A DNA stretch of 64,000 nucleotides from Spirosoma panaciterrae DSM 21099 (GTDB lineage: Bacteria > Bacteroidota > Bacteroidia > Cytophagales > Spirosomataceae): positions 62,001-126,000 of the forward strand of contig NZ_KB893182.1 in NCBI RefSeq assembly GCF_000374025.1, given 5' to 3'. The stretch's first letter is position 1. The number at the start of each line of letters is the position of its first letter. Below are positions 45,993 through 64,000 of this stretch, piece by piece. Both the position numbers and the translations under genes were made by a program. The notes beneath the pieces were generated by a model. The model searched no databases and was not told the origin of the DNA. It worked only from the letters and a program-made list of their open reading frames with translations.

Positions 45993-46014
45993 AGTAAGTG
46001 GGACTGTAGATTCT

Positions 46015-47007: not shown

Positions 47008-47030
47008 GTATACGTGTAAAAGGTGGGTTG

Positions 47031-48530
47031 TCAAACCTGCATGGCATACTGCATAACCGTTTCCTGCGAAGCCTCCCGGGTCGAAAGTTCGGCGGTTTTC
47101 TTCCCCTTCGCCATAACCAGGATTCGGTCGCTCAGCCCCAGGAGTTCGGGAAGCTCAGACGAGATCAGGATGATGGCTTTACCGGCTTCTTTCAATTGAT
47201 GAATGAGTTTATAAATTTCAGCTTTAGCGCCAATGTCGATGCCACGGGTTGGTTCATCAAGAATAATGATTGATGGCGATGAAAGCAACATTTTGCCAAT
47301 GACTACTTTTTGCTGATTCCCTCCGCTCAAAAATGTGACGAACTGCTCAGGACTAGCAGCCTTTATGCGCAGGTCAGCAATCATACGGTCGGCGGCTGTG
47401 GATTCACTTGCTGCCTGGATCAGGCCCCCTTTGGCGTGAACAGATAAACTGGCTAAGGTTATATTTTCGCGGACCGACAGCCGGGGGATAAACCCAAAGC
47501 CTTTCCGGTCTTCGCTTACGTAGCCGATGCCCCGGCGGATCGCATCCTGCGGAGACTGTATGTCAGCGTGTTCGCCCCGGATATAAATCTGGCCACTATC
47601 GGGTTGGTCGAGGCCAAAAATGGTCCGGGCTACCTCGGTTCGGCCTGCGCCCATCAATCCACCAAAACCCAGTACCTCGCCTTCGTGGACGGCAAAACTG
47701 ATGTCGGCAAACTGCCCCTGTCGGCTTAACTCCTTCACCGACAGGATTTCTTTACCCCGTTGGATGGCAGAAGCGGGAAACAGACTCTCAATTTTTCGGC
47801 CTACCATCATCGTAATCAGCGTATCCATGTCCAGTTCGGAAGCAGGGCGAGTGTCGATGTATTTACCATCCCGAAGTACGGTAATGGTATCGGCCAGGGC
47901 GGTAATCTCTTCCATCTTGTGAGATATGTAGATGATCGCTACGCCTTTGGCCGTGAGGTCTTTAATTAGCCGAAAGAGGGTGGCTACTTCCTTCTCCGAC
48001 AGCGCCGAGGTCGGCTCGTCCATGATGATTACCTTTGCGTTGTTGGAAATGGCCTTCGCAATTTCAACCATCTGCATCTGAGCCACGCTCAGGTGCTTCA
48101 TTTTGAGGCTGGGGTCGATTTGAATATCCATTTCCCGAAGTAACGCACCGGCCCGGTTGGTGAGGGCCCGATCATCCAGCCAACTGAACAGATGGCCAGT
48201 GGTTTCCCGACCCAGAAAAATATTCTGGGCAACCGTCAATTCAGGTACGGCCAGCATTTCCTGGTGAATCATCGAGATGCCTCTTTTCATGACCTCCCGG
48301 ACATGGCCAGCCGCCAGTTCCGCCCCTTCGAAGATGATTTTTCCGGAGTCGGCCGATAAAAGACCGATCAGAATCTTCATCAAGGTAGACTTCCCGGCCC
48401 CATTCTCACCCATCAGGGCGTGGACTTCCCCTTTTCGTACGGCCAACTGAACCTGATCGAGGGCTTTTACCCCCGAAAAGGATTTGGTCAGCTCATGTAC
48501 CTGAAGAATGTAGTCGGAATTGGGATTCAT
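47031..48530 (-). CDS. Sugar ABC transporter ATP-binding protein (RbsA-like)
   Basis: 499 residues with two fused ABC domains, the usual length for RbsA/XylG-type proteins. First domain: Walker A GENGAGKST, signature LSVAQMQMVEIAKA, Walker B VIIMDEPTSAL. Second domain: degenerate Walker A GLMGAGRTE, signature LSGGNQQKVVIGK, Walker B IIILDEPTRGID. It drives import through the permease encoded next. First of the three transporter genes, 44 bp after the DUF4432 gene. Confidence 0.95.
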   Translation of the reverse strand: MNPNSDYILQVHELTKSFSGVKALDQVQLAVRKGEVHALMGENGAGKSTLMKILIGLLSADSGKIIFEGAELAAGHVREVMKRGISMIHQEMLAVPELTVAQNIFLGRETTGHLFSWLDDRALTNRAGALLREMDIQIDPSLKMKHLSVAQMQMVEIAKAISNNAKVIIMDEPTSALSEKEVATLFRLIKDLTAKGVAIIYISHKMEEITALADTITVLRDGKYIDTRPASELDMDTLITMMVGRKIESLFPASAIQRGKEILSVKELSRQGQFADISFAVHEGEVLGFGGLMGAGRTEVARTIFGLDQPDSGQIYIRGEHADIQSPQDAIRRGIGYVSEDRKGFGFIPRLSVRENITLASLSVHAKGGLIQAASESTAADRMIADLRIKAASPEQFVTFLSGGNQQKVVIGKMLLSSPSIIILDEPTRGIDIGAKAEIYKLIHQLKEAGKAIILISSELPELLGLSDRILVMAKGKKTAELSTREASQETVMQYAMQV

Positions 48531-49816: not shown

Positions 49817-51196
49817 TTAAGGTTGAACCCTGCTACCATCACCCGTCGGAACATTTTCTGATCGTTGCCATTCGTATACCACAAATCCAATCAGTAATCC
49901 ATATTCCAATCCGACAAGCGGCAAATTCTCATTGTACGGATAAGTTCGATAGGCTCCGTAAGACAGTATAACAAGCCCTGACCAGACAAACGGATACCGT
50001 AAAGAGGCAAACAGGCTTACAGCCAATAGGGTAGTAATATACCAGGGGTGAACCGTTGTGGCCAGCAACCAGTAGATACTCAACGTAAGGAGTACTCGGG
50101 TTGAAAGGGTATGCGCCGATACCCTGCGCGGTTTCCAGACGGCAATGACTAGGGTACTAAAAGCAATGAGAACGAACAGGAACGGGCCTGCTTCATGAAT
50201 GATACTATGCCCCGTAAGCACATAACCAACTGCCCGAATCACATAATAGATACTGGCGTTGAATTCAAACGTCTGGAAATACAGGTCGAGGCTGGACAAC
50301 ACATTTCCCACCAGATGGGTGTTGATAAACGGCAGAAAAAGCAACCCGGCTATTGCCAGGGTACCTGTTCCGTAGTTGATTCCACGCTTCCAGCCCAGGT
50401 ATCGAATTAGCAGTGGGAAAAAAAGCAGCGGTAGTAGTTTTGTGCCAATACTTAAGGCGAATGCCCCTGCGGATACTGCCCAGCGTTTTTGCAGATAGAG
50501 CCAAACGGCTAAAAGGGCGAAGAAAATCATCACGGCCTCATAGTGGATGTTTCCGGTCAGTTCCAGAATTACCAGGGGGTTTAGTCCGTAAAGCAAAGCC
50601 AGATTGGGGTTTTGTCCGAACCCTCTGAGAAGCGTTACCAGCAGCCACAATGTACCCGTTTCGGCCAGCACAATCGGGACACGTAAGCCAATCAGGTTGC
50701 CCAGTAAAGTATCGGGCGAAAGCAAAGCGGCCAGGCCAAACAATGCCTGATTGACGGGAGGATAAACGGTGAAGTAATTGGGCGAATTTAAGCTCTTGTA
50801 CAACGACTCGGTTAATCCGGCCGTTGCCGCTAAAGGGGTATGGATAATCTGGCTGGGCAAATAAAGATACGGGTTATACCCGTTGGCAAGCAGACGCCCA
50901 TCCCAGACGAATCGAACGTAGTCATCCGATAGGTTAGGAACAGCAGCTAGTAAACTAAGCCGAAACAAAACGGCCGCCAGAAAGAGAAATCGGTCGGGCT
51001 CAGATGCAAAAACAGACGTGTGTACGGGTTGGTTTGATCGGCTCCACAACGGCCGGGTAATCCGAACGTAGCCCCAGAAGGCAAGCCCGTATAGCAGCAG
51101 CAGCAGATTGAATTGCGACCGGACAAGCCCGTATCCGATCAGGGTAAACAGGGCTAGCGAAAGAGCCAGCCAGCCAATCCGAAACGGTGTAATCAT
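49817..51196 (-). CDS. Integral-membrane GT-C type glycosyltransferase
   Basis: 459 residues with about eleven membrane segments. The first large loop has LSDDYVRFVWDGRLLANGYN, the acidic signature expected in polyprenol-phosphate-sugar dependent mannosyltransferases (GT-C fold; DUF2029/MptB-like). YFTVYPPVNQALF, NPLVILELTGNIHYEAVMIF and a terminal STRVLLTLSIYWLLATTVHPWY match that group. It would transfer a sugar from a lipid carrier outside the membrane. Its start overlaps the stop of the preceding glycosyltransferase gene (ATGA). Donor and acceptor unknown. Confidence 0.8.
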   Translation of the reverse strand: MITPFRIGWLALSLALFTLIGYGLVRSQFNLLLLLYGLAFWGYVRITRPLWSRSNQPVHTSVFASEPDRFLFLAAVLFRLSLLAAVPNLSDDYVRFVWDGRLLANGYNPYLYLPSQIIHTPLAATAGLTESLYKSLNSPNYFTVYPPVNQALFGLAALLSPDTLLGNLIGLRVPIVLAETGTLWLLVTLLRGFGQNPNLALLYGLNPLVILELTGNIHYEAVMIFFALLAVWLYLQKRWAVSAGAFALSIGTKLLPLLFFPLLIRYLGWKRGINYGTGTLAIAGLLFLPFINTHLVGNVLSSLDLYFQTFEFNASIYYVIRAVGYVLTGHSIIHEAGPFLFVLIAFSTLVIAVWKPRRVSAHTLSTRVLLTLSIYWLLATTVHPWYITTLLAVSLFASLRYPFVWSGLVILSYGAYRTYPYNENLPLVGLEYGLLIGFVVYEWQRSENVPTGDGSRVQP

Positions 51197-52749
51197 GGCT
51201 GTAGAACCGTCATGGGCGGTGCTACGTTCGCTTTTCCAGACCAGTTATGCACCAGCGTATACCCAACGACGAATCCATAGCCAATCACCAGCAGGCTGTG
51301 CAGAATCCATAGGGAATAGTCGCGTAGGTACATGCCCAAACCAATTCCTGCCAGAAAATACAGCCCAACCCCAATCTCTAAAAAAACAGATTTGGGCAAC
51401 GCTTTCTTCAGGTAAACATTGGTGGTCCAGTCGGCAGGCTTTGTCGTACTATTGAATTTTGGCGTGCGAACGAAAGGGGTCTTTTTCCCAAAAAGACCTT
51501 CCAGTACGGCCAGACTGTTGTGTAGCGATAAACCCAGCATGATGGAAATAAAGGTGGGAAAGAGCCAGAAAAATCGGATCACCCGGCTAAAAATAGAGGG
51601 ATTTATCGCATGGTCAGTCGGTTCACGGCTGATTTCAGATTGATAGTAGGCAATTCCGTAAAAAAGGGTTGAAATGAGGGTCGCCAGTAAAAAGAAATTC
51701 GATAGTTGGTGGCTGATGGTAGCCCAGTCGGGATGACGATGGTGAATCCACAACACGGGTACGCTTAGCACAGCCATACTCAGAATAAGTACAAGCAGGG
51801 AACTGTTCAGCAAATGAAAACAGGCCTGTATTTTTTTGCGGACTGAAATACCTGATTTCTGCCAGACCTTTCCCAGAAGTTTCCGACTGCATTCGGCTGG
51901 CCCTTTCATCCAACGGTACTGTTGCGACTTAATCGCATCCATCGTAATCGGCAGTTCGGCGGGCACCCCAACATCGACACGGTAAACAATTTTCCAGTTC
52001 GTTAGCTGCGCCCGGTAACTCAAATCCAGATCTTCGGTCAGCGTATCCGCTTGCCAGCCGCCACTGGTTCGTATCGCTTCACGACGCCAGATACCGGCCG
52101 TTCCACTAAAATTTAAAAAGAGCCCGGTGGCGTAGCGAGCATACTGTTCGATAAGAAAGTGCGCATTCAGCCCAAAAGCCTGAATCTGAGTCAGTAGCGA
52201 GTTGTGCTGATTGGTATGCAACCAGCGAGTCTGAACAACGCCTATGTCAGACTGCGTGAAACTGGGAAGCACGCGTAATAGAAAATCGGGCTCAGGTAGA
52301 AAATCGGCATCGAAAATAGCCACGTACTCGCTGTCGGTCAGGGTGAGGCCATAGGCTAACGCTCCTGCCTTAAAACCCGATCGGTCGGGTCGGCGGATGT
52401 GTACGAACGGAAGACCTGCCGCCTGATAAGCAACCACTTTTTGGGCAATCAGCAACGTAGTGTCGTCCGTCGAATCGTCCAGAATCTGAATGGTCAACCT
52501 GTCCCGAGGATACTGCAATTGAGCGATGGCATCGATCAGTCGCTCCACTACGTATAACTCATTGTAAATGGGTAATTGAATCGTAAGGGAAGGTAATTGT
52601 TCCCAGCGTGTAGCAGGTGCCGGAAGGCCCTCATGTCTGCGACGCCAGCGACCGTATAGATACCGCACAAGAAGCCCCAACTGACCAATACTGAACAGTA
52701 CGATCAGAACAATCAGCAGGTTGTACAGGACGAAAATGAATAGCTCCAT
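51193..52749 (-). CDS. Processive-type family 2 glycosyltransferase (cellulose-synthase-like)
   Basis: 518 residues: N-terminal membrane segment, GT2 domain, then C-terminal membrane helices. Motifs of the processive group are clear: DDSTDDT, FDADFLPEPDFL (DxD), TEDLDLSYRA (TED) and QQYRWMKGP (QxxRW). It most resembles the beta-glucan/glucomannan synthase-like proteins in small bacterial glycan clusters. It lies 43 bp downstream of a DPM1-like gene and is coupled to the GT-C gene. Product unknown. Confidence 0.88.
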   Translation of the reverse strand: MELFIFVLYNLLIVLIVLFSIGQLGLLVRYLYGRWRRRHEGLPAPATRWEQLPSLTIQLPIYNELYVVERLIDAIAQLQYPRDRLTIQILDDSTDDTTLLIAQKVVAYQAAGLPFVHIRRPDRSGFKAGALAYGLTLTDSEYVAIFDADFLPEPDFLLRVLPSFTQSDIGVVQTRWLHTNQHNSLLTQIQAFGLNAHFLIEQYARYATGLFLNFSGTAGIWRREAIRTSGGWQADTLTEDLDLSYRAQLTNWKIVYRVDVGVPAELPITMDAIKSQQYRWMKGPAECSRKLLGKVWQKSGISVRKKIQACFHLLNSSLLVLILSMAVLSVPVLWIHHRHPDWATISHQLSNFFLLATLISTLFYGIAYYQSEISREPTDHAINPSIFSRVIRFFWLFPTFISIMLGLSLHNSLAVLEGLFGKKTPFVRTPKFNSTTKPADWTTNVYLKKALPKSVFLEIGVGLYFLAGIGLGMYLRDYSLWILHSLLVIGYGFVVGYTLVHNWSGKANVAPPMTVLQP

Positions 52750-52792: not shown

Positions 52793-53485
52793 CTACCAGT
52801 ACTTAAAAATGGTGGTCAGGATTTTGTAGCCTGCCAGTATCGTCCCTTTGATCGTGCCCGAAATTTTTGAGTGCCCGATCCGTCTTCGATAACTCACAGG
52901 TACTTCGGTTGTTTTACAGCGTAGTTTGGCAGCTTTTAATTGCATTTCGACGGTCCAGCCGTAGGTTTTATCCTGCATGTTCAGCGCCAACAACGTATCG
53001 AACCGAATGGCACGGAAGGGGCCTAAATCCGTAAATCGTACCCCATACAATCTACGCAGCAGCCGGGTAGCCAGCCAGTTTCCGAAGAGCTGTTGCGGGG
53101 TCATGGAACCCCGTTGCCGATTCCCCAACGCGCGTGAACCGATCACTAAATCAGCGTTTTGCTCCAGAATCGGTGCAACGACGCGGGGTAGTTCAGCCGG
53201 AAAATCGGAATAGTCAGCATCCAGAAAAACGACGATGTCGGGCACGGGCTGACGTTGTGTCGCATAGGCAATACCCCGCAAACACGCTCGCCCGTATCCT
53301 TGAATGGGCTCGTCCAGTACGGTAGCGCCCGCGCGGGAGGCTTCCACAGCGGTCTGATCGTTGGAGTTGTTATTGACGACAATAACTTCCTGTACAAGTT
53401 CAGCGGGTATTTCACGGATCACCTGCCCAACAGAATTTTCCTCGTTGAAGGCGGGAATAATAACGACGATAATTGGCGGGTTCAA
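52793..53485 (-). CDS. Family 2 glycosyltransferase, DPM1-like
   Basis: 230 residues, no membrane anchor. PAFNEENSVGQVI, VNNNSNDQTA, GYGRACLRGIAYA, FLDADYSDFP (DxD) and YGWTVEMQLKAAKL match dolichyl/polyprenyl-phosphate sugar synthases. It would charge a lipid carrier with a sugar used by the GT-C enzyme of the same operon; this link is inference. It lies 40 bp after the TIGR04282-type gene. Confidence 0.87.
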   Translation of the reverse strand: MNPPIIVVIIPAFNEENSVGQVIREIPAELVQEVIVVNNNSNDQTAVEASRAGATVLDEPIQGYGRACLRGIAYATQRQPVPDIVVFLDADYSDFPAELPRVVAPILEQNADLVIGSRALGNRQRGSMTPQQLFGNWLATRLLRRLYGVRFTDLGPFRAIRFDTLLALNMQDKTYGWTVEMQLKAAKLRCKTTEVPVSYRRRIGHSKISGTIKGTILAGYKILTTIFKYW

Positions 53486-53525: not shown

Positions 53526-54128
53526 TCATAACGGCTGGCCTGTTTTCAGAAGATAAGCTTCATAATCAGCCCATTCGTCAATGTCGGTTAGTTCATCGAG
53601 TTGGGCGAAGGTTAGTCCATGCTGCATAATCGCCAATTCGGTCAACTGCCTTAGTTCGGGCTGGCTCCAGGGCATATCCTGAAATAAAAAAGGCTGAAGC
53701 TGATTCATGCCCAGCAAATAATACCCGCCGTCGGTAGCTGGCCCGATAACCACGTCTACGGTATCGAGTGTGGCAAACGCAGTATGAATATGGCTGGGCG
53801 TTAGATCAAAACAGTCGCTGCCAATGATAACCACTTTTCCGGCCCCGGCTCTAAATTGTTCCGCAAACGCATGATGCATACGCTCGCCCAGATCCGCCCC
53901 AGATTGCTGATACTTGACAAATGGATTCCAGCCATCATCGGCATTCACAAAATCGCCGTAATACACCGCGCAACATTCCCTGAAATCAGATGCCAACGTT
54001 TGGGTGTACGTCAGTAAATGCTGGTATACGTCCAACGCTTTCGCATCACCCACCGTTCGGGCAATGCGGGTTTTCACCTGACCCGGAATGGGATTTTTGA
54101 CAAATACAATCAGTTGCTCTGGTGTCAT
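53526..54128 (-). CDS. TIGR04282-type arsenosugar biosynthesis glycosyltransferase (DUF2064)
   Basis: 200 residues from ATG 54128 (MTPEQLIVFVKNP), the family's usual start. Nucleotidyl/glycosyl-transferase-like fold with VKNPIPGQVKTRIA, IGSDCFDLTPSHI and IGPATDGGYYLLGM. The family was first noted as a transferase encoded near radical SAM/Cys-rich proteins and is now linked to ArsS. It is first in a four-gene glycosyltransferase operon and divergent from the nucleoside phosphorylase gene. Confidence 0.88.
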   Translation of the reverse strand: MTPEQLIVFVKNPIPGQVKTRIARTVGDAKALDVYQHLLTYTQTLASDFRECCAVYYGDFVNADDGWNPFVKYQQSGADLGERMHHAFAEQFRAGAGKVVIIGSDCFDLTPSHIHTAFATLDTVDVVIGPATDGGYYLLGMNQLQPFLFQDMPWSQPELRQLTELAIMQHGLTFAQLDELTDIDEWADYEAYLLKTGQPL

Positions 54129-54224
54129 GAATACTGATAACGAAACAAGCGAACAATCGGTTAATGAAATCGTGTGATTAATTTTCAACGATTATCTTGC
54201 AAAAAAGATAGCCTACTCTCATTT
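54129..54224. promoter_or_regulatory. Divergent promoter region (glycosyltransferase operon / phosphorylase)
   Basis: A 96-bp AT-rich spacer between two divergent start codons must hold both promoters. ATTATCTTGC at 54191-54200 is a near match to the Bacteroidetes minus-7 element for the plus-strand gene. No operator is obvious. Confidence 0.4.
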
Positions 54225-55046
54225 ATGACCATACTTGAACAGGTTCAGCAGACCACCCAGTTTATTCAATCGAAAACGCAGCTTACCCCCCAAATCGGGA
54301 TCATTCTGGGAACAGGTCTTGGCGCGCTGGCGCAGGAGCTAACCATCGAAATGACCTTACCCTACGAATCCATTCCTCATTTCCCACTGTCGACGGTTGA
54401 GTTTCACTCGGGGAAGTTGCTGCTGGGTACGCTTGGCGACAAACCTGTGGTAGTGATGCAGGGACGGTTTCATTTTTATGAAGGCTATTCCATGCAGCAA
54501 ATTACGTTTCCGGTACGGGTCATGCACGCCCTGGGCGTTCGAACGCTGCTGGTCTCCAACGCAGCTGGTGGCCTGAATCCCGCTTTTCAAACGACAGATT
54601 TGATGGTCATCGACGACCACATCAGTTTGCTGCTTCCTCAAAACCCGCTGGTAGGGCCAAACCCTCCCGAATTTGGCGACCGTTTTCCCGACATGAGTGA
54701 ACCCTACAGCAAAGCCCTGGCTGATCAGGCATTTGCTATTGCCGATGAACTGGGCATTCGTCTCCAGCGAGGGGTCTACGTCAGCGTAACGGGGCCACAA
54801 CTCGAAACCCGGGCTGAATACCGAATGCTCCGCCAGTGGGGAGCCGATGCCGTGGGTATGTCGACTGTGCCGGAAGTGATCGTAGCCAATCAGATGGGAA
54901 TGGCCGTTTTTGGCGTATCCGTCATCACAGACATGTGCATACCCGAAACTCTGGAAAAAGCCGACATTCAAAAAATCATAGCCGCTGCGGGTACCGCAGA
55001 GCCCCATCTTACTCGTCTGATGCGGTCGTTGGTCAGTCGGTTATAA
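54225..55046 (+). CDS. Purine nucleoside phosphorylase
   Basis: 273 residues from ATG 54225, normal for the trimeric PNP family. [85 protein letters not shown] and [16 protein letters not shown] are characteristic. It splits purine nucleosides to base and ribose 1-phosphate. Placed among arsenosugar genes, it may remove adenine from the arsenical deoxyadenosine made by ArsS; that role is inference, and ordinary purine salvage is possible. Its stop codon is one base from that of arsS. Confidence 0.93.
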
Positions 55047-55047
55047 A

Positions 55048-56094
55048 TCAGGCGGTTGTGCCTCCGCAACTGGACCCCGCCCCGGCGGTGCAACCGTAGC
55101 AATGCTGATTGATAACTATCGAGCGCTGATTTAAGGTAGTCAGGTCGAAATCCGCTACGTGCTGGACTGGACTGGCTACTTTTAAATCGAGCATCTGGTT
55201 AAAATCACAGTCGTAAATAAACCCATCCCAGCTGATAGACAGGGTATTTCGGCACATGACGCCAGCAGCCGCTACGGGATTGAATGCATTGACCAGTTTT
55301 TCCATGTAGCCGTCGTAGTTACCGGACGAAATCAGGTAATCCAGGAATCGACTGATCGGTATGTTGGTAATGGCGTACAGATCATTGAACTGAATCCCAA
55401 ACTCATCCTGCAAAACCCGCTTGAACTGTCGTTTCAAACTCTCCTGCGAACCCGGCAGAAAAGCGCCATTCGGATTATAGACCAGATTCAGCAGCAGACC
55501 CGTATCGGGCTGACCATAGCCCACCGCGTTCAGCATACGTAACGCCCGAACAGAGTCTTCAAAAACGCCTTTCCCGCGCTGACGGTCGGTTTTGTCGGCA
55601 TTGTAAAAGGGCAATGAACTAACGACCTCAACCTCGTGCTGCCGAAAGAAATCAGGCAAGTCATTGTATTTAGGGTTGGCCACGATGATCGTCAGATTGC
55701 AACGTACCATGACCTTCCGGCCCAGCTTCCGAACCTCTTCTACGAACCAGCGGAAATTTGGATTCATTTCTGGTGCGCCCCCCGTTAGATCGACCGTGGG
55801 AATGTTCGTTTGGGCCAGCGCATCCAGACAAGCCTGCATGGTTTCGCGGGTCATGATTTCCTTCCGGTCGGGACCCGCATCGACATGGCAATGCCGACAA
55901 ACCTGATTACACATTTTTCCCAGATTGATCTGAAAAACAGCCGGTTCAACGGTGCTTAGCGGAAACAGTCCAGCGGTTTGAAGTTTCTGGTGAAATAGGG
56001 GTAATTGCAACGTATCGGCCACTTCGCTTTGCAGCGTTTGCAGTTGTACGTCAACGTTGGCTAACTGATGCCCACTGGCTTTAAGTGATTTCAT
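55048..56094 (-). CDS. arsS: Arsenosugar biosynthesis radical SAM protein ArsS
   Basis: 348 residues from ATG 56094 (MKSLKASGHQ; an ATG at 56100 is equally possible). Radical SAM cysteines C62, C66 and C69 (CNQVCRHCHVDAG), the GG motif DLTGGAPEMNPNF and the Cys-rich tail HCYGCTAGAGSSCGG are hallmarks. Characterised ArsS moves the 5'-deoxyadenosyl group of SAM onto dimethylarsenite, giving the precursor of arsenosugars. It is last in a six-gene minus-strand cluster. Confidence 0.93.
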   Translation of the reverse strand: MKSLKASGHQLANVDVQLQTLQSEVADTLQLPLFHQKLQTAGLFPLSTVEPAVFQINLGKMCNQVCRHCHVDAGPDRKEIMTRETMQACLDALAQTNIPTVDLTGGAPEMNPNFRWFVEEVRKLGRKVMVRCNLTIIVANPKYNDLPDFFRQHEVEVVSSLPFYNADKTDRQRGKGVFEDSVRALRMLNAVGYGQPDTGLLLNLVYNPNGAFLPGSQESLKRQFKRVLQDEFGIQFNDLYAITNIPISRFLDYLISSGNYDGYMEKLVNAFNPVAAAGVMCRNTLSISWDGFIYDCDFNQMLDLKVASPVQHVADFDLTTLNQRSIVINQHCYGCTAGAGSSCGGTTA

Positions 56095-56100
56095 AAGCAT

Positions 56101-56179
56101 AATGAGCGAAAGAGTGAATGAGCGAAAGAGCGGGCTGCCGGATGGCTTTCGCTCTTTCATTCTTTCGCTCTTTCACTCT
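56101..56179. repeat. Inverted array of GAGCGAAAGAG repeats
   Basis: AATGAGCGAAAGAG occurs at 56101-56114 and 56117-56130, and inverted versions (CTTTCGCTCTTTCATT, CTTTCGCTCTTTCACT) follow after a short GC-rich centre. The array lies between the AhpD-like gene and arsS and could fold into a long imperfect hairpin in the transcript. The low-complexity nature suggests a dispersed intergenic repeat of this genome. Confidence 0.7.
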
Positions 56180-56183
56180 TTTA

Positions 56184-56516
56184 TTACATCGATAATTCTT
56201 TGGCTTTGTTCATCATTTGGACGCCGTGCACCAGCGAAGCCCCGCCACGAATGGCGGCTGCTACGTGGACGGCTTCCATCATTTCGGCTTCCGAACAGCC
56301 TTTTTCGAGCGTATCGGATGTGTAGGCATCAATACAATAAGGGCATTGCACCGTATGCGAAACCGCCAGGGCAATCAGTGATTTCTCGCGGGCTGTCAGA
56401 GCACCTTCCGCAAAAACAGAACCGTAGTACGAAAAAAACTTGTCGGCCAGTTCTTTCTGAAACTCACCAATTTTGCCAAACTTCTTGAGGTCTTCAGGAT
56501 TATAATAGGTCTGCAT
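56184..56516 (-). CDS. Arsenosugar biosynthesis-associated AhpD-like protein
   Basis: 110 residues with the carboxymuconolactone decarboxylase/AhpD fold and the redox motif CPYC (C58, C61) in SHTVQCPYCIDAYT. This small peroxidase-like protein (TIGR04169 type) is a recurrent neighbour of arsS. It may reduce oxidised arsenic or protect the pathway thiols; the exact role is unknown. The gene lies 89 bp upstream of arsS across a repeat array. Confidence 0.9.
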   Translation of the reverse strand: MQTYYNPEDLKKFGKIGEFQKELADKFFSYYGSVFAEGALTAREKSLIALAVSHTVQCPYCIDAYTSDTLEKGCSEAEMMEAVHVAAAIRGGASLVHGVQMMNKAKELSM

Positions 56517-56583
56517 AGGGATCGGGCCGGTGCACCGGCTGAATTAAGTTAATATGAATACGAGAACAAGCTAAAAATAGATT

Positions 56584-57513
56584 TCACTCATAAAAGTGCC
56601 GGAGTCTTCGGGTCGTGGTGAGCACAATCCAGTCGCCTAGGCGGGGCAGGTGTGTATGAACCAGCACGATCAATCTTCCCAGTGCCGAAATCACGGTCCG
56701 TTGCCGACGTCGCCGAATATGATTGAGAATGATCCGGGCAACGTCGGCCTGACTTTTCTGCCAGCGGGGAGGCCGATGCGCAATGGGTACAGGCCGGCCC
56801 GTTGCATCGAGTACGCGTTTGTCTGGATCATTCTGCGTGAACCCTATGTGTACGACACCAATCTGAATACTTGTATGAGCCAGTTCGAGACGTAGCGTAT
56901 GAGCTAAATTAGCCACGGCTGCTTTTCCGGCACAATAAGCGGAGCCGCTGGGCATGCCATTCAGCGCCGAGATGGATGAAATGAACGTAACGACGCCCTT
57001 AGTTTTGGTTAGATGCGGTAAAGCGGCTTTCAACGGATATACCGTTCCATACACGTTGCTATCGAGCACCTGCCGGAATACGTCGGGAGTCATATCCGCA
57101 AAGTAAGCCCGCATCGAAATACTGGCGTTCGTGATCAGAATATCCAACTGCCCGAAATTGTCGATAGCGGTTGCAATCAACCGTTCGCAGTCGTCGAAGC
57201 AGGTTACATCGGCCAGGCAACTCACGACGTCCAGGCCCTCGTCAAGCAGCTCATCTTCTGTTTGTGCCAAACGCTCCGTTGTGCGTCCGTTTAAAATCAC
57301 CTTCGCCCCAGCTTTGCCCAATGCCCGCGCTGTAGCTTTACCAATGCCCGATTCCGAACCGGTCACAATGGCAACTTTTCCAGCAAACGGCCCTGTAGGA
57401 GTTACTACCCCGGATTTACGCTTTTTCGAGGCCTCCGAAACAGCAGTGGGTAAAGCCGACGTTTGTAGGTCTACAGGTTCCGTTGATGTGATGGGCTTAG
57501 TTAGTTCGAGCAC
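56584..57513 (-). CDS. Short-chain dehydrogenase/reductase
   Basis: Up to 309 residues from a GTG at 57513. The Rossmann motif TGSESGIGKA begins near residue 52, the active site has SSIS with YCAGK, and NASISM replaces NAAG. The first 45 residues are low in structure and the real start may be further in; no ATG precedes the core. The C-terminal basic/hydrophobic tail (RRRRQRTVISALGRLIVLVH) suggests membrane association. The 5' end overlaps the upstream epimerase gene by 17 bp. Substrate unknown, perhaps a glycan or lipid intermediate. Confidence 0.85.
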   Translation of the reverse strand: MLELTKPITSTEPVDLQTSALPTAVSEASKKRKSGVVTPTGPFAGKVAIVTGSESGIGKATARALGKAGAKVILNGRTTERLAQTEDELLDEGLDVVSCLADVTCFDDCERLIATAIDNFGQLDILITNASISMRAYFADMTPDVFRQVLDSNVYGTVYPLKAALPHLTKTKGVVTFISSISALNGMPSGSAYCAGKAAVANLAHTLRLELAHTSIQIGVVHIGFTQNDPDKRVLDATGRPVPIAHRPPRWQKSQADVARIILNHIRRRRQRTVISALGRLIVLVHTHLPRLGDWIVLTTTRRLRHFYE

Positions 57514-58507
57514 GTTGAGTAAGGTAGTTATGTTGTGTAAACCAGTTGAAGGCTTCGTCTATGGCTTCTTCAATCGGCGTTTGGGGTAGTCCCAGTTCGG
57601 TAATGGCTTTCTGCGAACTGAAATAATGACCATCGTTCGCTACGGCAATCATGGCTGAATTTAGCCTTCCCGGACGACGGGTTAGTTTGGCAAAAGCGTC
57701 GCAACCGATACCATACAGCCTGGCCAGGCCGGGTGGAATGGGCCAGCGCGGAGGGGCTACCCCCATGCGTTGCGCTATTAGTTGAAACGCTTCCTGATAA
57801 CTCATGTTTGAATTTCCTAGTATATACGACTCCCCCAATCGTCCCTGCATCAGGGCATTGACCGTGGCTACTGCTACGTCGCGTACGTGAACATAATTTT
57901 TTCCACCGGCTGGGTAACCCACCACGCGCCCTCGATAGAGTTCCAGAAGCATTTGCCCAGACGTCGGTTTGGCATCAAATCCGCCCAGCATAAAGGTCGG
58001 ATGCACCAGAATGGCGGGAAGACTACCCCGTTGAACCGCTTCCTGAACCCGATCAGTAGCCGCCCGTTTACTGTCGATGTAATCGGAGCCGTATCGCTTT
58101 CCCGCAAACGGATACGTTTCATCGCCCGGTTGTTGCTTTGTCCCGAACCCAAAAACGTTGGCCGTTCCAACATAAACGAATCGTTGAACGCTGCCCTGCC
58201 GGGCTGCTTCAATCATGTTTTCGGTTCCGGTCTGATTCACGGCCCATACCACCGGATTTCGGGCCGGGTTCACCTGAGCCTGAGCTGCTGCGTGAATAAC
58301 CGCGTCACAACCTGCCACTGCTGTTTGCAACGACCGAACATCTAAAACATCACCTTCAAACCACTCAATAGGCAGACCCGCCAGCGTCGGGCAGCGCTGT
58401 TGATGCCGAACGAGTACCCTAACCCGGTATCGACGTGCCAGCAGTTCGCGGGTCAGATTAGCCCCCAGAAAACCATTGGCTCCGGTTAGTAGTACGGTTG
58501 TTTTCAT
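57497..58507 (-). CDS. NAD-dependent epimerase/dehydratase (extended SDR)
   Basis: 336 residues from ATG 58507, which overlaps the stop of the upstream glycosyltransferase gene. TGANGFLGANL is the NAD-binding motif, DAVIHAAAQAQVNP follows, and YIDSKRAATD is the YxxxK site. It resembles hopanoid-associated sugar epimerases and dihydroflavonol-reductase-like proteins. It probably modifies the sugar or carrier handled by the neighbouring glycosyltransferase. Specific substrate unknown. Confidence 0.87.
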   Translation of the reverse strand: MKTTVLLTGANGFLGANLTRELLARRYRVRVLVRHQQRCPTLAGLPIEWFEGDVLDVRSLQTAVAGCDAVIHAAAQAQVNPARNPVVWAVNQTGTENMIEAARQGSVQRFVYVGTANVFGFGTKQQPGDETYPFAGKRYGSDYIDSKRAATDRVQEAVQRGSLPAILVHPTFMLGGFDAKPTSGQMLLELYRGRVVGYPAGGKNYVHVRDVAVATVNALMQGRLGESYILGNSNMSYQEAFQLIAQRMGVAPPRWPIPPGLARLYGIGCDAFAKLTRRPGRLNSAMIAVANDGHYFSSQKAITELGLPQTPIEEAIDEAFNWFTQHNYLTQRARTN

Positions 58508-59199
58508 CAACGATAATTCAGCATGGCTTTATAAGTGCGGGCAATCCGACCGGGCGACACGTTCATAAAGAACAGCGAAAAAGCGGTTAGGTTGGCTATT
58601 TGTACACGGAACCAGCTATTGGTGTCGTATTTTCGGGCCGATACCAGTACGTCTTTCGGGATGATACAAAACCGGGCAACTTTCCGAATCCGGATGATGA
58701 TGTCAAAATCCTCCATGATGGTGTAGTATTCATCGAAGCCGCCCAATCGGTCAAATAGCGCACGGGTTATGAATAGAGTCTGATCGCCCCCGCGACTCAT
58801 AATCCCCGGAAAACGGGTTCCATAACTGTTGAACCGGAGCATGATTTTGTCCGAATTGAACCGAAACCGATAACAACCCGCTTCATAACCCGCTTTTACG
58901 GCCTGCTCAATATCTGCAACAAAATCAGGGTTAATACCGACGTCGGCATGGACAAAATACAGAACGTCCCCTTTGGCCAGCGTAGCCCCGAAATTCATCT
59001 GAGCCGCCCGGCCCGGCTTGGGCGATTGCCTGACTACAGCACCCGCCTGTCTGGCCACCTCAGCCGTACCATCAGGGCTTGCGGCATCAATCACCAAAAC
59101 CTCCAGTAAAGAACTTCCCCCGAGTGTCAGCAAATTCTGAACTAACCGGCCAATTGCCTGGGCTTCGTTGTAGGTGGGAATGATAATGCTAAACGTCAT
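58507..59199 (-). CDS. TIGR04283-type arsenosugar biosynthesis glycosyltransferase
   Basis: 230 residues from ATG 59199 (MTFSIIIPTYNEA); an open frame continues upstream into the barrel gene but is not needed. GT2 motifs: IPTYNEAQAIG, VIDAASPDGT, YFVHADVGINPDF (DxD-like), SRGGDQTLFI and MEDFDIIIRIRK. This subgroup is the second transferase that recurs with ArsS. It lies between the outer-membrane barrel gene and the epimerase gene in one transcript. Confidence 0.9.
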   Translation of the reverse strand: MTFSIIIPTYNEAQAIGRLVQNLLTLGGSSLLEVLVIDAASPDGTAEVARQAGAVVRQSPKPGRAAQMNFGATLAKGDVLYFVHADVGINPDFVADIEQAVKAGYEAGCYRFRFNSDKIMLRFNSYGTRFPGIMSRGGDQTLFITRALFDRLGGFDEYYTIMEDFDIIIRIRKVARFCIIPKDVLVSARKYDTNSWFRVQIANLTAFSLFFMNVSPGRIARTYKAMLNYR

Positions 59200-59275: not shown

Positions 59276-60382
59276 TTAAAAAGCCTCTCCAATGGTTAGA
59301 TAAAAACCGCTCGACTGCCGTCCCATCCCGTAATCCAACCGGATGTTAAGATGGTCGCGACGGTTCATGGTAAAGCGCAATCCGGCTCCGTAGGCCACTT
59401 TGGGCTCATTAACTCGTAGCCATGATTGCGCATCTCCCAGAATACCAGCGGCTCCGAAAACCACGCCCCCCAACCGTTTGTACAGATCGAACCGGAGTTC
59501 ACTCTGAAGTAAGGCTACATTCTGGTTGCGGTAGCGACCTTCGTAATAGCCCCGCATTCGTTTGGTGCCTCCCAGCAATGACAGGGCATTGAAGGGAGCC
59601 TCGCCCGTTGTAAAACTTACGAAATAATTGACCGCTAAGATTGCATGATCGCTCAATGAATGATAGGACGATACATCGGCAGTATAGCGGTCGAAGCGGA
59701 CATTGCCGCCCAACACCTGATTATGAGCCAGATACGCAATGTCGGCTACAACGCCTTTGGAGGGAAAGAAAATGACATTACGTGAATCATAAAACAAGCC
59801 GAGTCCAGCCCCCGACAAACGACTGCCCAATCCGCCAGCTACGGAACCCGACGCCAGCAACCCGCCCGGCTCGACGCTAGTTACCTGATAATCTTCGTAT
59901 TGATACCGAATCCCAGCATAGAGCTTTCCTCGACTTATATTGGGACTGATACGCCGGAAGGCATTGATCCGTATACGCGGGAAGTTTACGCCGTATAACT
60001 CACGGGGAACTTCCTGCTGGCCAACGCCATAGAAATAATAATTGTAGCGATAATACCCAGCCTCGCCATTGATGTAATAGTTGTCGCGGTCGTAAAAAAT
60101 CTGAAAAGGCAGGTAAAACAGGATTTGCTTGTTCTGGGTATAGGCAAAGCCCAGCGTAACCTGCGACGGACGAATGGAGGCTCTGGCCCGCCCGGACGAA
60201 TCGGATCGCAAGAAGGCCATATCGCGCTTAAAACGGAACGTAGCTGTGGCCGCTGCCCCATACGCCACCCGGGTTTCGGGTGTATAATAAACGAGTGGAA
60301 GGGGTAAGATACTGAACGCCTTTGGAACACTGTCGGGCGGAGGGGAAATCAATAAGGCAGTTACCAGCGACGAAAAGAGCAT
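59276..60382 (-). CDS. Outer-membrane beta-barrel protein (BamA/surface-antigen family)
   Basis: 368 residues with a short signal-like start and no POTRA domains. The whole protein is a barrel: YTPETRVAYGAAATATFRF, AGLGLFYDSRNVIFFPSKG, LGGTKRMRGYYEGRYRNQN (the RxRGY signature of the Omp85 barrel) and a terminal GFYLTIGEAF strand with the C-terminal Phe. Such POTRA-less Omp85-like proteins may export or anchor a surface product. It is first in the operon ending with arsS. Confidence 0.85.
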   Translation of the reverse strand: MLFSSLVTALLISPPPDSVPKAFSILPLPLVYYTPETRVAYGAAATATFRFKRDMAFLRSDSSGRARASIRPSQVTLGFAYTQNKQILFYLPFQIFYDRDNYYINGEAGYYRYNYYFYGVGQQEVPRELYGVNFPRIRINAFRRISPNISRGKLYAGIRYQYEDYQVTSVEPGGLLASGSVAGGLGSRLSGAGLGLFYDSRNVIFFPSKGVVADIAYLAHNQVLGGNVRFDRYTADVSSYHSLSDHAILAVNYFVSFTTGEAPFNALSLLGGTKRMRGYYEGRYRNQNVALLQSELRFDLYKRLGGVVFGAAGILGDAQSWLRVNEPKVAYGAGLRFTMNRRDHLNIRLDYGMGRQSSGFYLTIGEAF

Positions 60383-60506: not shown

Positions 60507-61268
60507 ATGACAATGCACCCCACGTATAAATTCCTGCTGGTTGGATTGGTATGCCTGCTAACCTCGGCCTTCACCGAACCAGTAGTAGCGCCTGTCGATC
60601 ACAGCGCCTATGACCGATTGCTGAAAAAGTACGTCAACGAAAAAGGTCTGGTCAATTACAAAGGCTTTAAATCGGATGAGAAAGCCTTGAACGACTATCT
60701 GGCTACGCTTAGTAAAAATCCTCCGGCGGCTTCGTGGAGCAAAAATGAGCAGATGGCTTTCTGGATCAATGCCTACAATGCGTACACGATTCGGCTCATT
60801 CTCGACCATTATCCCGTAAAAAGCATCAAGGACATTGGCTCCAAAATCAAGATTCCGTTTGTGACTACGCCCTGGGCTGCCAAGTTTTTTACGATCGGTG
60901 GCGAAAAAATGAGCCTCGATAACATCGAGCATGGCATTCTGCGCAAAAAATTTAACGACCCCCGTATTCACTTTACCCTGGTCTGTGCGTCCATTTCGTG
61001 CCCCCGCCTTCGGAATGAAGCGTATACAGCCGATAAACTGGATGCCCAAATGGACGATCAGGGACGCGATTTTCTGAATAATCCGAGCAAGAATAAAATC
61101 GGTAAAGACGAAGCCCAACTGTCGAACTACTTCAACTGGTATAAAGGCGACTGGACCAAGAATGGGCAGTCGGTCGTGAAATGGGTCAATAAATATTCCA
61201 ATACAAAAATTTCAGATAAGACCGACATCGAGTTCCTGGATTACAACTGGAATCTCAACGAGCAGTAA
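60507..61268 (+). CDS. DUF547-domain exported protein
   Basis: 253 residues with a signal peptide (FLLVGLVCLLTSAFT). The DUF547 core includes YDRLLKKYVNEKGLVNYKGF, QMAFWINAYNAYTIRLILDH, LDNIEHGILRKKFNDPRIHF, and LVCASISCPRLRNEAYTADK with conserved Cys residues. The fold is papain-like/transglutaminase-like in related families but the activity is unknown. It starts a plus-strand operon with an FAD oxidoreductase 21 bp downstream. Confidence 0.9.
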   Translation: MTMHPTYKFLLVGLVCLLTSAFTEPVVAPVDHSAYDRLLKKYVNEKGLVNYKGFKSDEKALNDYLATLSKNPPAASWSKNEQMAFWINAYNAYTIRLILDHYPVKSIKDIGSKIKIPFVTTPWAAKFFTIGGEKMSLDNIEHGILRKKFNDPRIHFTLVCASISCPRLRNEAYTADKLDAQMDDQGRDFLNNPSKNKIGKDEAQLSNYFNWYKGDWTKNGQSVVKWVNKYSNTKISDKTDIEFLDYNWNLNEQ

Positions 61269-61289
61269 TCACTGTTGAAACGGGCGGTT

Positions 61290-62663
61290 ATGAAGCACCT
61301 GATCATCATCGGAAACGGCATTGCCGGTATCACAACCGCCCGGCATGTCCGCCAGCAGGATTCCAGAGTAGGGATAACGGTCATTTCGGCTGAATCCGAG
61401 CATTTTTACTCGCGAACCGCGCTCATGTACATCTACATGGGGCACATGACCTACGCGCACACGAAGCCCTACGAAGACGGTTTCTGGGCCAAAAACCGTA
61501 TCGACCTGCTACAGGGATACGTCGAGCAGGTCGATACGTCGACGAAGCGGATCCGGCTGGCTGATGGAAAATGGCTCGATTACGACGTACTGGTGGTAGC
61601 TACCGGCTCGGTGTCGACTACGTTCGACTGGCCTGGTCTTACCGCTTCGGGTGTACAGGGGCTATATGGGCTGCCCGATCTGGAGCGGATGGAGCAATTC
61701 ACTACGGGCATCGACCGGGCGGTAGTCGTGGGTGGTGGACTCATTGGTGTCGAGCTGGCCGAAATGCTCCGATCCCGACACATTGCCGTAACGATGCTGG
61801 TCCGCGATCCCCACTACTGGAGTTCGACGTTGCCCGCCGAAGAAGGTAAGTTGATCGGTCGTCATTTGCTCCGGCATGGCATCGATCTCCGGCTTGAAAC
61901 CGAGCTAAAAGAAATTCTGGCCTGGCGTGGCCCGGCCGGGCCGCGTTCGGCGGATGCATCGGGTCGGGTGCGGGCGGTCGTGACGAAAGCAGGCGAAGAA
62001 ATTCCCTGCCAGTTTGTGGGCCTGGGTATCGGTGTCACACCGAACGTAGCCTTTCTGAAAAACTCAGGAATTGAACTGGGGAAAGGGGTTTTGGTCAACG
62101 AGTATTTCGAAACCAACGTAGCCGATGTGTATGCCATTGGCGATTGCAACGAATTCCGGCAACCCATAGTGGGTACAGACGGAGCTTTGCGCAAACCCAT
62201 CGAACAAATCTGGTATACGAGTCGGATGCACGGTGAAACCCTGGCCCGAACGATTTGCGGCTCGCGAACGGCTTACCGACCGGGTGTCTTTTTCAACTCG
62301 GCCAAATTCTTCGACATCGAATACCAGACCTATGGAACCCTGAACGCCCAACTTACCGACGACGAACAAACCTATTACTGGGAGCATCCGGCTGGTGAGC
62401 AGTGTCTGCGCATCAACTACCGGAAAACTGACCAATCCGTTGTTGGTATCCATGCCTTTGGGCTACGGTTGCGTCAGGCTGTCTGCGAACACTGGATTCA
62501 GCAGCGTACCCCTGTCGAGAATGTACTGAGTCAGTTTCGGCAGGCCGATTTCAATCCCGAATTTTCAGAATTCTACACCGACCAACTGGCCGGGCACACT
62601 CCTGCCGGATCGCCGAACCGCCGAAAGGGGTGGTTTAGGCGGTTATTTTCAACTACGCATTAA
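61290..62663 (+). CDS. FAD/NAD(P)-dependent oxidoreductase
   Basis: 457 residues from ATG 61290; an upstream TTG is less likely. FAD motif IIGNGIAGITTARHV at the N terminus, NAD motif VVGGGLIGVELAEML in the middle, and VADVYAIGDCNEF for the FAD ribityl contact. It belongs to the pyridine-nucleotide disulfide-oxidoreductase-like group (rubredoxin/nitrite reductase type) and lacks a redox CxxC near the FAD motif. It may reduce the polyferredoxin encoded 12 bp downstream. Confidence 0.9.
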   Translation: MKHLIIIGNGIAGITTARHVRQQDSRVGITVISAESEHFYSRTALMYIYMGHMTYAHTKPYEDGFWAKNRIDLLQGYVEQVDTSTKRIRLADGKWLDYDVLVVATGSVSTTFDWPGLTASGVQGLYGLPDLERMEQFTTGIDRAVVVGGGLIGVELAEMLRSRHIAVTMLVRDPHYWSSTLPAEEGKLIGRHLLRHGIDLRLETELKEILAWRGPAGPRSADASGRVRAVVTKAGEEIPCQFVGLGIGVTPNVAFLKNSGIELGKGVLVNEYFETNVADVYAIGDCNEFRQPIVGTDGALRKPIEQIWYTSRMHGETLARTICGSRTAYRPGVFFNSAKFFDIEYQTYGTLNAQLTDDEQTYYWEHPAGEQCLRINYRKTDQSVVGIHAFGLRLRQAVCEHWIQQRTPVENVLSQFRQADFNPEFSEFYTDQLAGHTPAGSPNRRKGWFRRLFSTTH

Positions 62664-62675
62664 TCCGTTATCACT

Positions 62676-64000
62676 ATGCAAACTACCGGGCAACGCATTG
62701 GTCTCACCGCTTTTCTGATCGGATTTGCGCTTTTTATAGCCACCCTTCCCCTGAGCCGGTATGTATTGACAGACAAGGTCCTGAGCCAAACCATCAATAA
62801 GGAGCAGTTAGCGGCTGTCCGAATGGCTACGGCATCCATGCAGGGAAAGGTGTACGGGTCGTCGGTCGGATTTGTCGGGGATTTTCGGGCTGCCATTGCC
62901 CGGCTTAATGAAGGCTATAAGCAGCGTAATGAGACTAGTCGTTTTATTCATGATTATGCTTTTCCGGTAACGAAAGCCGCCAGCACTGGCTTTTTTTCGG
63001 ATAATAGCCAACTGTTTTTCTGGCTGATTCTATTGCTGTGTGTTGGCGGAGCCCTGCTTTATATTTTACCAGCTCAACGGGCGTTGCCCGGTATAAAAAA
63101 CAATGGCATCTATCAGGACCCGGCAACCAACCGGGGCTGGATTGGTGTCGTGGTGTGTGGTTTTCTGATTGGGTTCTACGTCCTGCTCTATTTTTTTCCA
63201 GAATACATGACCAATTGGGTGTTGCTGTTCGACCCACTGAGCCAATTACTGAACGGTGGGCCCGCCAGCCAGTGGTTCGTATATGGGACGCTGTACACGC
63301 TGGTGATTCTGGTAATGGGCGTGCGGATGATGGTTAAGTACCGACATAGCCGCTACCAACAACTGCGCACGCTTTCGGTTATGTTTTTCCAGGTGGTCTT
63401 TGCGTTTCTGATTCCTGAATTGCTCGCTTTTTTTCATCAGCCCGCGCAGGATTTGAAAAATATGTGGCCGCTGGATTATAGTTTTTATTTCGATTACCGA
63501 ATCGACGAAAAGATAAAGGCGGGTACGTTTGGCATCTTTCTGCTCGTCTGGGGAACGGCTCTCTGGATGCTGGGTGTGCCGATCCTGACGTATTTTTACG
63601 GCAAACGCTGGTACTGCTCGTGGGTATGTGGCTGCGGTGGTCTGGCCGAAACCCTGGGCGATCCGTACCGACAGCTATCCGATAAGCGGCTGGTTGTCTG
63701 GAAGCTGGAGCGTATTATGGTGCATTCGGTACTTGTATTTGCGGTTGTGATGACGGCATTGGTGCTATACACCTACTGGAGTGGGCAACCGTCACTATTC
63801 GGATTTCTGGATTCCTATGGTATCCGTTCGGTATACGGGTCTGCTATCGGGGCTATTTTTGCAGGGGTATTGGGCACTGGATTCTATCCCGTTTTCGGGA
63901 GCCGCGTCTGGTGCCGGTTTGGCTGTCCGCTGGCGGCTTACCTGGGGCTGGTTCAACGCTTTAAATCCCGATTCCGCATCACGACAAATGGCGGTCAATG
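62676..64000 (+). CDS. Polyferredoxin-like 4Fe-4S membrane protein (partial)
   Basis: Open from ATG 62676 to the right edge, at least 441 codons, cut by the window. Several membrane segments are seen (IGLTAFLIGFALFIATLPL, FFWLILLLCVGGALLYIL, WIGVVVCGFLIGFYVLLYFF). NapH/NosR-type cysteine motifs follow: WYCSWVCGCGG (W312-G322) and WCRFGCPLAAYLG (W412-G424). The 4Fe-4S ferredoxin domain expected next lies beyond the edge. It would move electrons between the quinone pool or FAD protein and a periplasmic or cytoplasmic partner. Last visible gene of the DUF547 operon. Confidence 0.88.
   Translation, partial: MQTTGQRIGLTAFLIGFALFIATLPLSRYVLTDKVLSQTINKEQLAAVRMATASMQGKVYGSSVGFVGDFRAAIARLNEGYKQRNETSRFIHDYAFPVTKAASTGFFSDNSQLFFWLILLLCVGGALLYILPAQRALPGIKNNGIYQDPATNRGWIGVVVCGFLIGFYVLLYFFPEYMTNWVLLFDPLSQLLNGGPASQWFVYGTLYTLVILVMGVRMMVKYRHSRYQQLRTLSVMFFQVVFAFLIPELLAFFHQPAQDLKNMWPLDYSFYFDYRIDEKIKAGTFGIFLLVWGTALWMLGVPILTYFYGKRWYCSWVCGCGGLAETLGDPYRQLSDKRLVVWKLERIMVHSVLVFAVVMTALVLYTYWSGQPSLFGFLDSYGIRSVYGSAIGAIFAGVLGTGFYPVFGSRVWCRFGCPLAAYLGLVQRFKSRFRITTNGGQ

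Follow-up and report, generated by a model that had tools for sequence, protein, structure and literature searches.

The stretch analyzed here, called the window, comprises 64,000 bases of the Spirosoma panaciterrae DSM 21099 genome (8.13 Mb), namely positions 62001-126000 of contig 11, and it carries a putative arsenosugar-biosynthesis cluster in which the radical S-adenosylmethionine (SAM) enzyme ArsS is encoded beside a purine nucleoside phosphorylase (PNP). Gene families were called with NCBIfam profiles against their curated cut-offs, and the Pfam domains agreed with these calls. Between 53526 and 59199, from the stop codon of the first gene to the likely ATG of the last, the gene order was TIGR04282, PNP, ArsS, AhpD-like protein, short-chain dehydrogenase/reductase (SDR), HpnA-like epimerase and TIGR04283. 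The TIGR04282 protein, which is labelled a glycosyltransferase, was encoded at 53526..54128 on the minus strand (186.3 bits, cut-off 134), and the PNP of the trimeric class at 54225..55046 on the plus strand (NF006054, 369 bits, cut-off 218; TIGR01700, 319.3 bits, cut-off 293.35). Start codons read from the DNA at 54100-54260 were probably 54225 for PNP and 54128 for TIGR04282, and the divergent intergenic region of 96 bases between them (54129..54224) was well conserved in four Spirosoma genomes. The remaining genes were all on the minus strand: ArsS at 55048..56160 (TIGR04167, 442.9 bits, cut-off 300), its AhpD-like partner at 56184..56516 (TIGR04169, 190.6 bits, cut-off 120), an SDR family oxidoreductase at 56584..57513 (NF004825, 220.3 bits, cut-off 215), an NAD-dependent epimerase/dehydratase of the SDR type, HpnA-like, at 57497..58510 (TIGR03466, 257.6 bits, below its cut-off of 367.65), and a TIGR04283 glycosyltransferase of family GT2 at 58507..59199 (214.9 bits, cut-off 182). 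PNP and TIGR04282 were divergent, and PNP and ArsS converged, the PNP gene ending 1 base from the ArsS stop. The initial annotation had described arsS, its AhpD-like partner, TIGR04282, TIGR04283 and PNP as occurring together. This was confirmed, as all five exceeded their cut-offs, including the four (ArsS, TIGR04169, TIGR04282 and TIGR04283) by which an ArsS-type cluster is recognized.

Next, we analyzed the PNP. The closest solved structure was a Spirosoma linguale PNP (4lna; 76% identity, TM-score 0.96, the top Foldseek match), indicating that the window PNP, which exceeds the TIGR01700 cut-off, has the PNP fold. The methylthioadenosine phosphorylase (MTAP) model TIGR01694 scored 85.4 bits, well under its cut-off of 274.85. 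Thus, the window PNP is not a member of that family, although the reaction proposed for it, phosphorolysis of a 5′-substituted adenosine, would be of the MTAP type. Three proteins of the genome matched PF01048; one was the window PNP, the single PNP of its type in the genome, and one was a methylthioadenosine/S-adenosylhomocysteine (SAH) nucleosidase (L244). Alignment to the human PNP H257F mutant (2a0x) placed Asp236 at the site of human Asn243 and Ile248 at the site of residue 257. The Asn243 (human numbering) by which specificity for 6-oxopurines is recognized is thus replaced by Asp, and because of the Asp and Ile at these two sites, which set the window PNP apart from trimeric PNP, it may not be "inosine and guanosine-specific" as the family name has it. 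In human PNP, Asn243Asp alone already confers much adenosine activity. According to one report, the human Glu201Gln:Asn243Asp enzyme cleaves adenosine-type prodrugs and the wild type does not (PMC2799393); another describes adenine in Schistosoma MTAP as bound via Asp230 and Asp232 (PMC5147791). By analogy, the Asp at the 243 site of the window PNP could act like these adenine-binding residues.

The same sites were then compared between PNPs linked to arsS and others. At the first site, 34/35 linked rows carried Asp (the window counts twice, as itself and as L068), as did 30/31 rows labelled unlinked (two of which, L012 and L016, are only fragments and come from genomes with a linked PNP), the one remaining row being a gap in each set. 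At the second site, 34/35 linked rows had Ile, Leu or Val and 29/31 unlinked rows had one of these or Phe; the remainder were again gaps. The Bacteroides fragilis PNP (alignment u151444) had Asp at the first site and His at the second. On these residues, it is plausible that the window PNP takes a 5′-substituted adenosine, yet this would not be peculiar to the linked enzymes.

The TIGR04282 protein was analyzed by its predicted structure. Its AlphaFold model had a predicted local distance difference test (pLDDT) score of 95.8, and its best solved relative by sequence was 3cgx, a putative nucleotide-diphospho-sugar transferase. Foldseek also ranked 3cgx highest, followed by 3-phospho-D-glycerate guanylyltransferase (7p97), MM2497 (2i5e) and Rv2983, and then by IspD, KdsB, GlmU and similar proteins; the TM-score to 7p97 and 2i5e was ~0.75. 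Among the best 50 of 352 matches (E up to 0.001), clear glycosyltransferases, as judged by description, appeared only at ranks 49-50. An alignment of 35 sequences contained 22 invariant columns, including K19, R21, D105 and D133. The CofC profile TIGR03552 (F420_cofC) matched weakly (28.8 bits, E 8.2e-7, cut-off 105). Therefore, the protein shares fold and weak sequence similarity with CofC and the phosphoglycerate and phospholactate guanylyltransferases, although it falls below the CofC cut-off and its activity is a prediction. The model thus makes a nucleotidyltransferase more likely than a glycosyltransferase; the two folds are related, so this assignment is favored rather than proven. It suggests that the NCBIfam label "glycosyltransferase" on TIGR04282 is wrong. 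On this one point the initial annotation, which counted TIGR04282 as one of two glycosyltransferase types, would call for revision.

ArsS adds the 5′-deoxyadenosyl group of SAM, yielding 5′-dimethylarsinoyl-5′-deoxyadenosine. ArsS over the TIGR04167 cut-off was a single copy in the genome. When the genome was searched for arsM, as the initial annotation had suggested, an arsenite methyltransferase was found outside the cluster (NF008823, 354.9 bits, cut-off 263), on contig 71 in the order arsR-arsM-arsN2-acr3. No arsM was present within the conserved block described below, and the arsenosugar-type ArsM model NF038099 was not exceeded anywhere in the genome (best 97 bits, cut-off 400). In Synechocystis, SsArsM and SsArsS have been reported to perform the initial steps of arsenosugar synthesis (PMC8552651). 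The S. panaciterrae genome similarly has an ArsS over the cut-off and an ArsM. It differs from Synechocystis in that arsS is accompanied by PNP and a CofC-like protein, and in that its ArsM, encoded among resistance genes, belongs to the general NF008823 type and not to the NF038099 type.

We then examined the surroundings of arsS in other genomes, using 62 loci of the order and 80 named genome contigs (the best 80 of at least 587 confirmed), a sample biased towards relatives of the window ArsS and nearly all from Bacteroidota. Loci with an arsS above 250 bits were counted, giving 142; one order locus with a partial arsS (L130) was dropped, two loci (L088 and L157, neither with PNP) had identical sequence, and G115 and G224 contributed two loci each. 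Genes were grouped by BLAST clustering, and one representative of each group was identified. The AhpD-like group occurred in 130 of the 142 loci, TIGR04282-like in 72 (an upper figure, as the cluster includes weak paralogues), arsM in 57 (the one tested member being NF038099), TIGR04283-like in 50, DUF547 in 41 and PNP in 34. A rhodanese group (representative NF045521, "near glyco"; L078 8766-9299) was also observed near arsS in 31/142 loci. The 34 loci with PNP within 10 kb of arsS comprised 28/80 named and 6/62 order loci, and in 33 of them the distance was at most 3 kb. Where TIGR04282 was also present (26 of the PNP loci), the two genes lay within 1 kb of each other in 19 and ran in the same direction in 18. 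Two Fulvivirga loci had ArsS, PNP and ArsM in this order, all in one direction, and several Flavobacteriaceae had TIGR04282-PNP-ArsM runs whose genes overlapped or were separated by short gaps. These results indicated that the association of PNP with arsS is non-random and that PNP is not a chance neighbor.

Co-occurrence was subsequently analyzed irrespective of gene position. In the genus (36 genomes), arsS was present in 13, PNP in 15 and TIGR04282 in 24, and PNP occurred in 12/13 genomes with arsS compared to 3/23 without (Fisher 4.2e-6, uncorrected for kinship). TIGR04282 was tried in place of arsS as the driver of this association and was rejected (PNP in 12/24 genomes with TIGR04282 and 3/12 without, p 0.28); all 11 genomes with TIGR04282 and without arsS had no PNP. 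An rpoB tree covered 32 of these genomes (the gene was not found in three and was partial in one, which was omitted); in it, PNP agreed with arsS in 4-5 of seven independent pairs differing in arsS and opposed it in none (median p 0.0625). The sister pairs G256/G241 and G252/G029 differed in all three genes, as did G247/G242, whose branch was not fully supported. In the order, arsS was found in 60/241 genomes and PNP in 139/241; a tally from two lists placed PNP in 54/60 genomes with arsS and 85/181 without. PNP and arsS were no more than 10 kb apart in 6 of these 54 (G000, G055, G069, G082, G229 and G235). In the class (396 genomes; arsS in 74, NF006054 PNP in 344), where copies per genome were tallied by hand, two PNP copies were present in 30/74 genomes with arsS and 15/322 without (p 2e-14, kinship ignored). 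All 18 listed genomes of family f53 had two PNPs whether or not arsS was present, and leaving this family out gave 19/63 and 8/315. Among the genomes listed, the corresponding figures with and without arsS were 10/11 and 0/6 in f26, 2/2 and 0/5 in f56, and 1/1 and 0/16 in f40.

The cluster belongs to a larger conserved block, extending from ~49817 to ~64861, just beyond the window edge. G000, G256, G266 and G253 had an identical order of 15 genes, from an MptB-like to a DUF6134-type gene, with PNP at the same place and the AhpD-like gene likewise at its position. At the left end, on the minus strand, lay a membrane protein weakly similar to MptB, a polyprenol-phosphomannose-dependent mannosyltransferase (49817..51196; NF038066, 30.7 bits, cut-off 40), which occupies the same position in the other three genomes; a GT2 glycosyltransferase resembling PgaC and cellulose synthase (51193..52749; TIGR03937, 102 bits, cut-off 422.3); and a GT2 protein resembling AglJ and polyprenyl-phosphate-sugar synthases (52793..53485; Pfam Glycos_transf_2, below the NCBIfam cut-offs). 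Beyond TIGR04283 followed an Omp85-family outer membrane protein on the minus strand (59276..60382; NCBIfam and Pfam) and, on the plus strand, a DUF547 protein (60507..61268; Pfam), an FAD-dependent pyridine-nucleotide oxidoreductase (61275..62663) and a NapH-like 4Fe-4S membrane protein (62676..64000, continuing to ~64226 outside the window, where the DUF6134-type gene follows). Each of these was kept in the block. In other lineages, too, arsS had an FAD oxidoreductase nearby in 12 and a NapH-like protein in 8 of the 80 named loci; the two proteins could serve as electron donors to ArsS or have an envelope role. Sugar ABC transporter-like genes, recognized by eye, lay to the left at 45045-48530 and were not found beside the island in G256, G266 and G253.

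In the fetched stretches, similarity to G000 ended at the MptB-like gene on the left and just after the DUF6134 gene on the right. For G256 and G266, it resumed ~5.5 kb further along G000 (84-85% over at least 5.5 kb); no such resumption was present in the fetched part of G253. Between G256 and G266, the block was 91.5% identical over 15,191 bp (PNP 94.0%, ArsS 94.7%), compared to 82.8% for rpoB. Because of this difference, the simplest reading of the sequences is that the block, including PNP, probably moved as a unit.

Elsewhere in Spirosoma, the arrangement of PNP varied. The TIGR04282-PNP pair was kept in nine genomes; in G257, G247 and G252 it lay 7-9 kb from arsS, and in G263 and G249 it was on a different contig from arsS. 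In a 19-member tree, a single, weakly supported branch (63/74) separated the nine paired PNPs from all others. G246, G254 and G259 had PNP with neither TIGR04282 nor arsS, and of the two PNPs in G252 only one was paired with TIGR04282. In one clade (G059, G248, G246 and the second copy of G252), the unpaired PNP lay ~0.7-2.8 kb from arsR-arsM-acetyltransferase-arsC-like-(acr3) genes, named partly by eye (L131 9328-16141; L339 2908-9846; L336 8845-16024; L338 8854-15951). No acr3 was found in the L338 stretch, and this neighborhood also occurred in two genomes without arsS.

Taken together, we consider it slightly more likely than not, at roughly 0.53, that the cluster is an arsenosugar-biosynthesis island, probably mobile, in which PNP strips adenine from the arsenical nucleoside en route. 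ArsM, encoded with the separate arsR-arsM-arsN2-acr3 genes, would produce dimethylarsenite, which ArsS would convert with the 5′-deoxyadenosyl group of SAM to 5′-dimethylarsinoyl-5′-deoxyadenosine. PNP would then cleave this nucleoside with phosphate, giving adenine and 5-deoxy-5-dimethylarsinoyl-ribose 1-phosphate. A sugar 1-phosphate, as released by a phosphorolytic PNP, is a nucleotidyltransferase substrate, hence the proposed order of steps: the CofC-like TIGR04282 protein would activate the arsenoribose 1-phosphate with a nucleoside triphosphate, and the GT2 enzyme TIGR04283 would move the arsenoribose onto an acceptor, perhaps a lipid or an envelope glycan, as suggested by the extra glycosyltransferases in the block. 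We infer every reaction after ArsS as well as the acceptor. Since TIGR04282 is likely a nucleotidyltransferase, the route would pass through an activated arsenoribose instead of two glycosyl transfers. The placement of PNP in such a route, already made in the initial annotation, is thus favored by its linkage, co-occurrence, extra copies and shared block, and its action on the arsenical, like arsenosugar formation itself, is a prediction. A broader version is possible but less likely than not: Bacteroidota may make a nucleoside diphosphate-arsenoribose through PNP and then TIGR04282, attach it to lipids or glycans of the envelope by TIGR04283 and the polyprenyl and GT2 neighbors, and spread the island horizontally as a unit.

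Several observations weigh against this route or against its mobility. The PNP of the window is transcribed opposite to its neighbors, and it retains Glu201, unlike the human double mutant; the Asp/Ile sites, tried as a marker of arsS-linked PNPs, were rejected because unlinked PNPs have them. In 108/142 loci, no such PNP was found in the fetched flanks of arsS. PNP was not found in one of the 13 arsS-containing genomes of the genus, nor in 6/60 of the order (G045, G073, G184, G195, G227 and G096), and the independent-pairs test fell short of 0.05. Among the genomes listed, no arsS-containing genome of f30, f33 or f59 had two PNP copies, and 1/8 had them in f72. Synechococcus elongatus, used as a control, had arsS and TIGR04282 and no PF01048 enzyme at E 1e-6; it would therefore need another way of removing adenine. 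As for transfer, the right flank past the block was 86.9% identical between G256 and G266 over 7.3 kb, below the block and above rpoB, and the rpoB of G266, the one marker gene on which the transfer argument rests, had an odd letter make-up. The moved piece may therefore be longer than the block, or rpoB may mislead.

The phylogeny of PNP bears on the same question. In a tree of 109 rows, 32 of them linked to arsS (the truncated L180 and L213 were dropped by length), one group of 43 rows comprised 31 linked and 12 unlinked PNPs (Shimodaira-Hasegawa-like approximate likelihood ratio test, SH-aLRT, 88; 95 for 42 rows without one of the unlinked). One row of the tree counted as unlinked, L012, is the same gene as linked L069. 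The window PNP was the sole linked PNP in another set of 44 rows (SH-aLRT 92), a further point against the proposed role, and it formed a fully supported group with the G059 and G151 PNPs, both unlinked. Its membership in a common arsS-linked PNP lineage was thus rejected. As it belongs to a different clade from the 31 of 32 linked PNPs, the linkage in Spirosoma arose independently, which speaks against one ancient cluster. Nevertheless, that PNP has become associated with arsS repeatedly and independently in itself points to a shared function.

This phylogeny would also suit ordinary purine salvage, with the adjacency in Spirosoma as a local accident in a PNP lineage other than the arsS-linked one: the window PNP clusters with unlinked PNPs, and 48 of the 54 order genomes with both genes have no PNP on the arsS contig at a distance of 10 kb or less. 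We regard this as improbable, however, since PNP was not found in 21/36 genomes of the genus at E 1e-20 and is thus not a housekeeping gene there; it follows arsS, belongs to the shared block, and keeps its pairing with TIGR04282 in nine Spirosoma genomes. It is rather unlikely that PNP acts indirectly, clearing 5′-deoxyadenosine or methylthioadenosine left over from SAM turnover, abortive or otherwise, or salvaging adenine, with no action on the arsenical. Such a role would also account for co-occurrence with a radical SAM enzyme, and the site residues would suit 5′-deoxyadenosine-type substrates in general. However, it leaves unexplained the pairing of PNP with TIGR04282, which is close in most loci having both (19/26) and persists apart from arsS in G263 and G249, and the genome already has the nucleosidase L244.

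PNP might instead handle arsenate, which would replace phosphate in phosphorolysis and feed arsenate reduction. Arsenate is reported to be reduced by mammalian PNP in vitro (PMC12608789), and in one Spirosoma clade another PNP copy adjoins arsR-arsM-arsC-like-(acr3) genes. This explanation appears very improbable, because that operon has its own arsC-like gene (by eye) and the broad PNP signal is with arsS. Moreover, the listed stretches of the ars operon in the window genome showed no PNP, the single such PNP of this genome being that of the window. Hydrolytic removal of adenine by a methylthioadenosine/SAH nucleosidase, making PNP dispensable, is very unlikely. Such nucleosidases were identified by NCBIfam in G000 and G195, five further proteins of the family appeared similar by eye, and one lay ~6.5 kb from arsS in G195 and another ~8.6 kb from it in Fibrella (L140). 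Several of the family nevertheless seem, by eye, to have signal peptides, and a single-query search detected a nucleosidase near arsS in no more than 2/142 loci, by which a nucleosidase beside arsS was rejected as a general substitute for PNP.

Among the open-access papers found, judged mostly by titles and the beginnings of abstracts, no phosphorylase had been assigned to the arsenosugar pathway, and the steps from the arsenical nucleoside made by ArsS to the arsenosugar were without an assigned enzyme. Two named enzymes, PNP and TIGR04282, are now candidates for the steps after ArsS, and the comparison suggests that in Spirosoma the synthesis of arsenosugars is patchily distributed and probably mobile.

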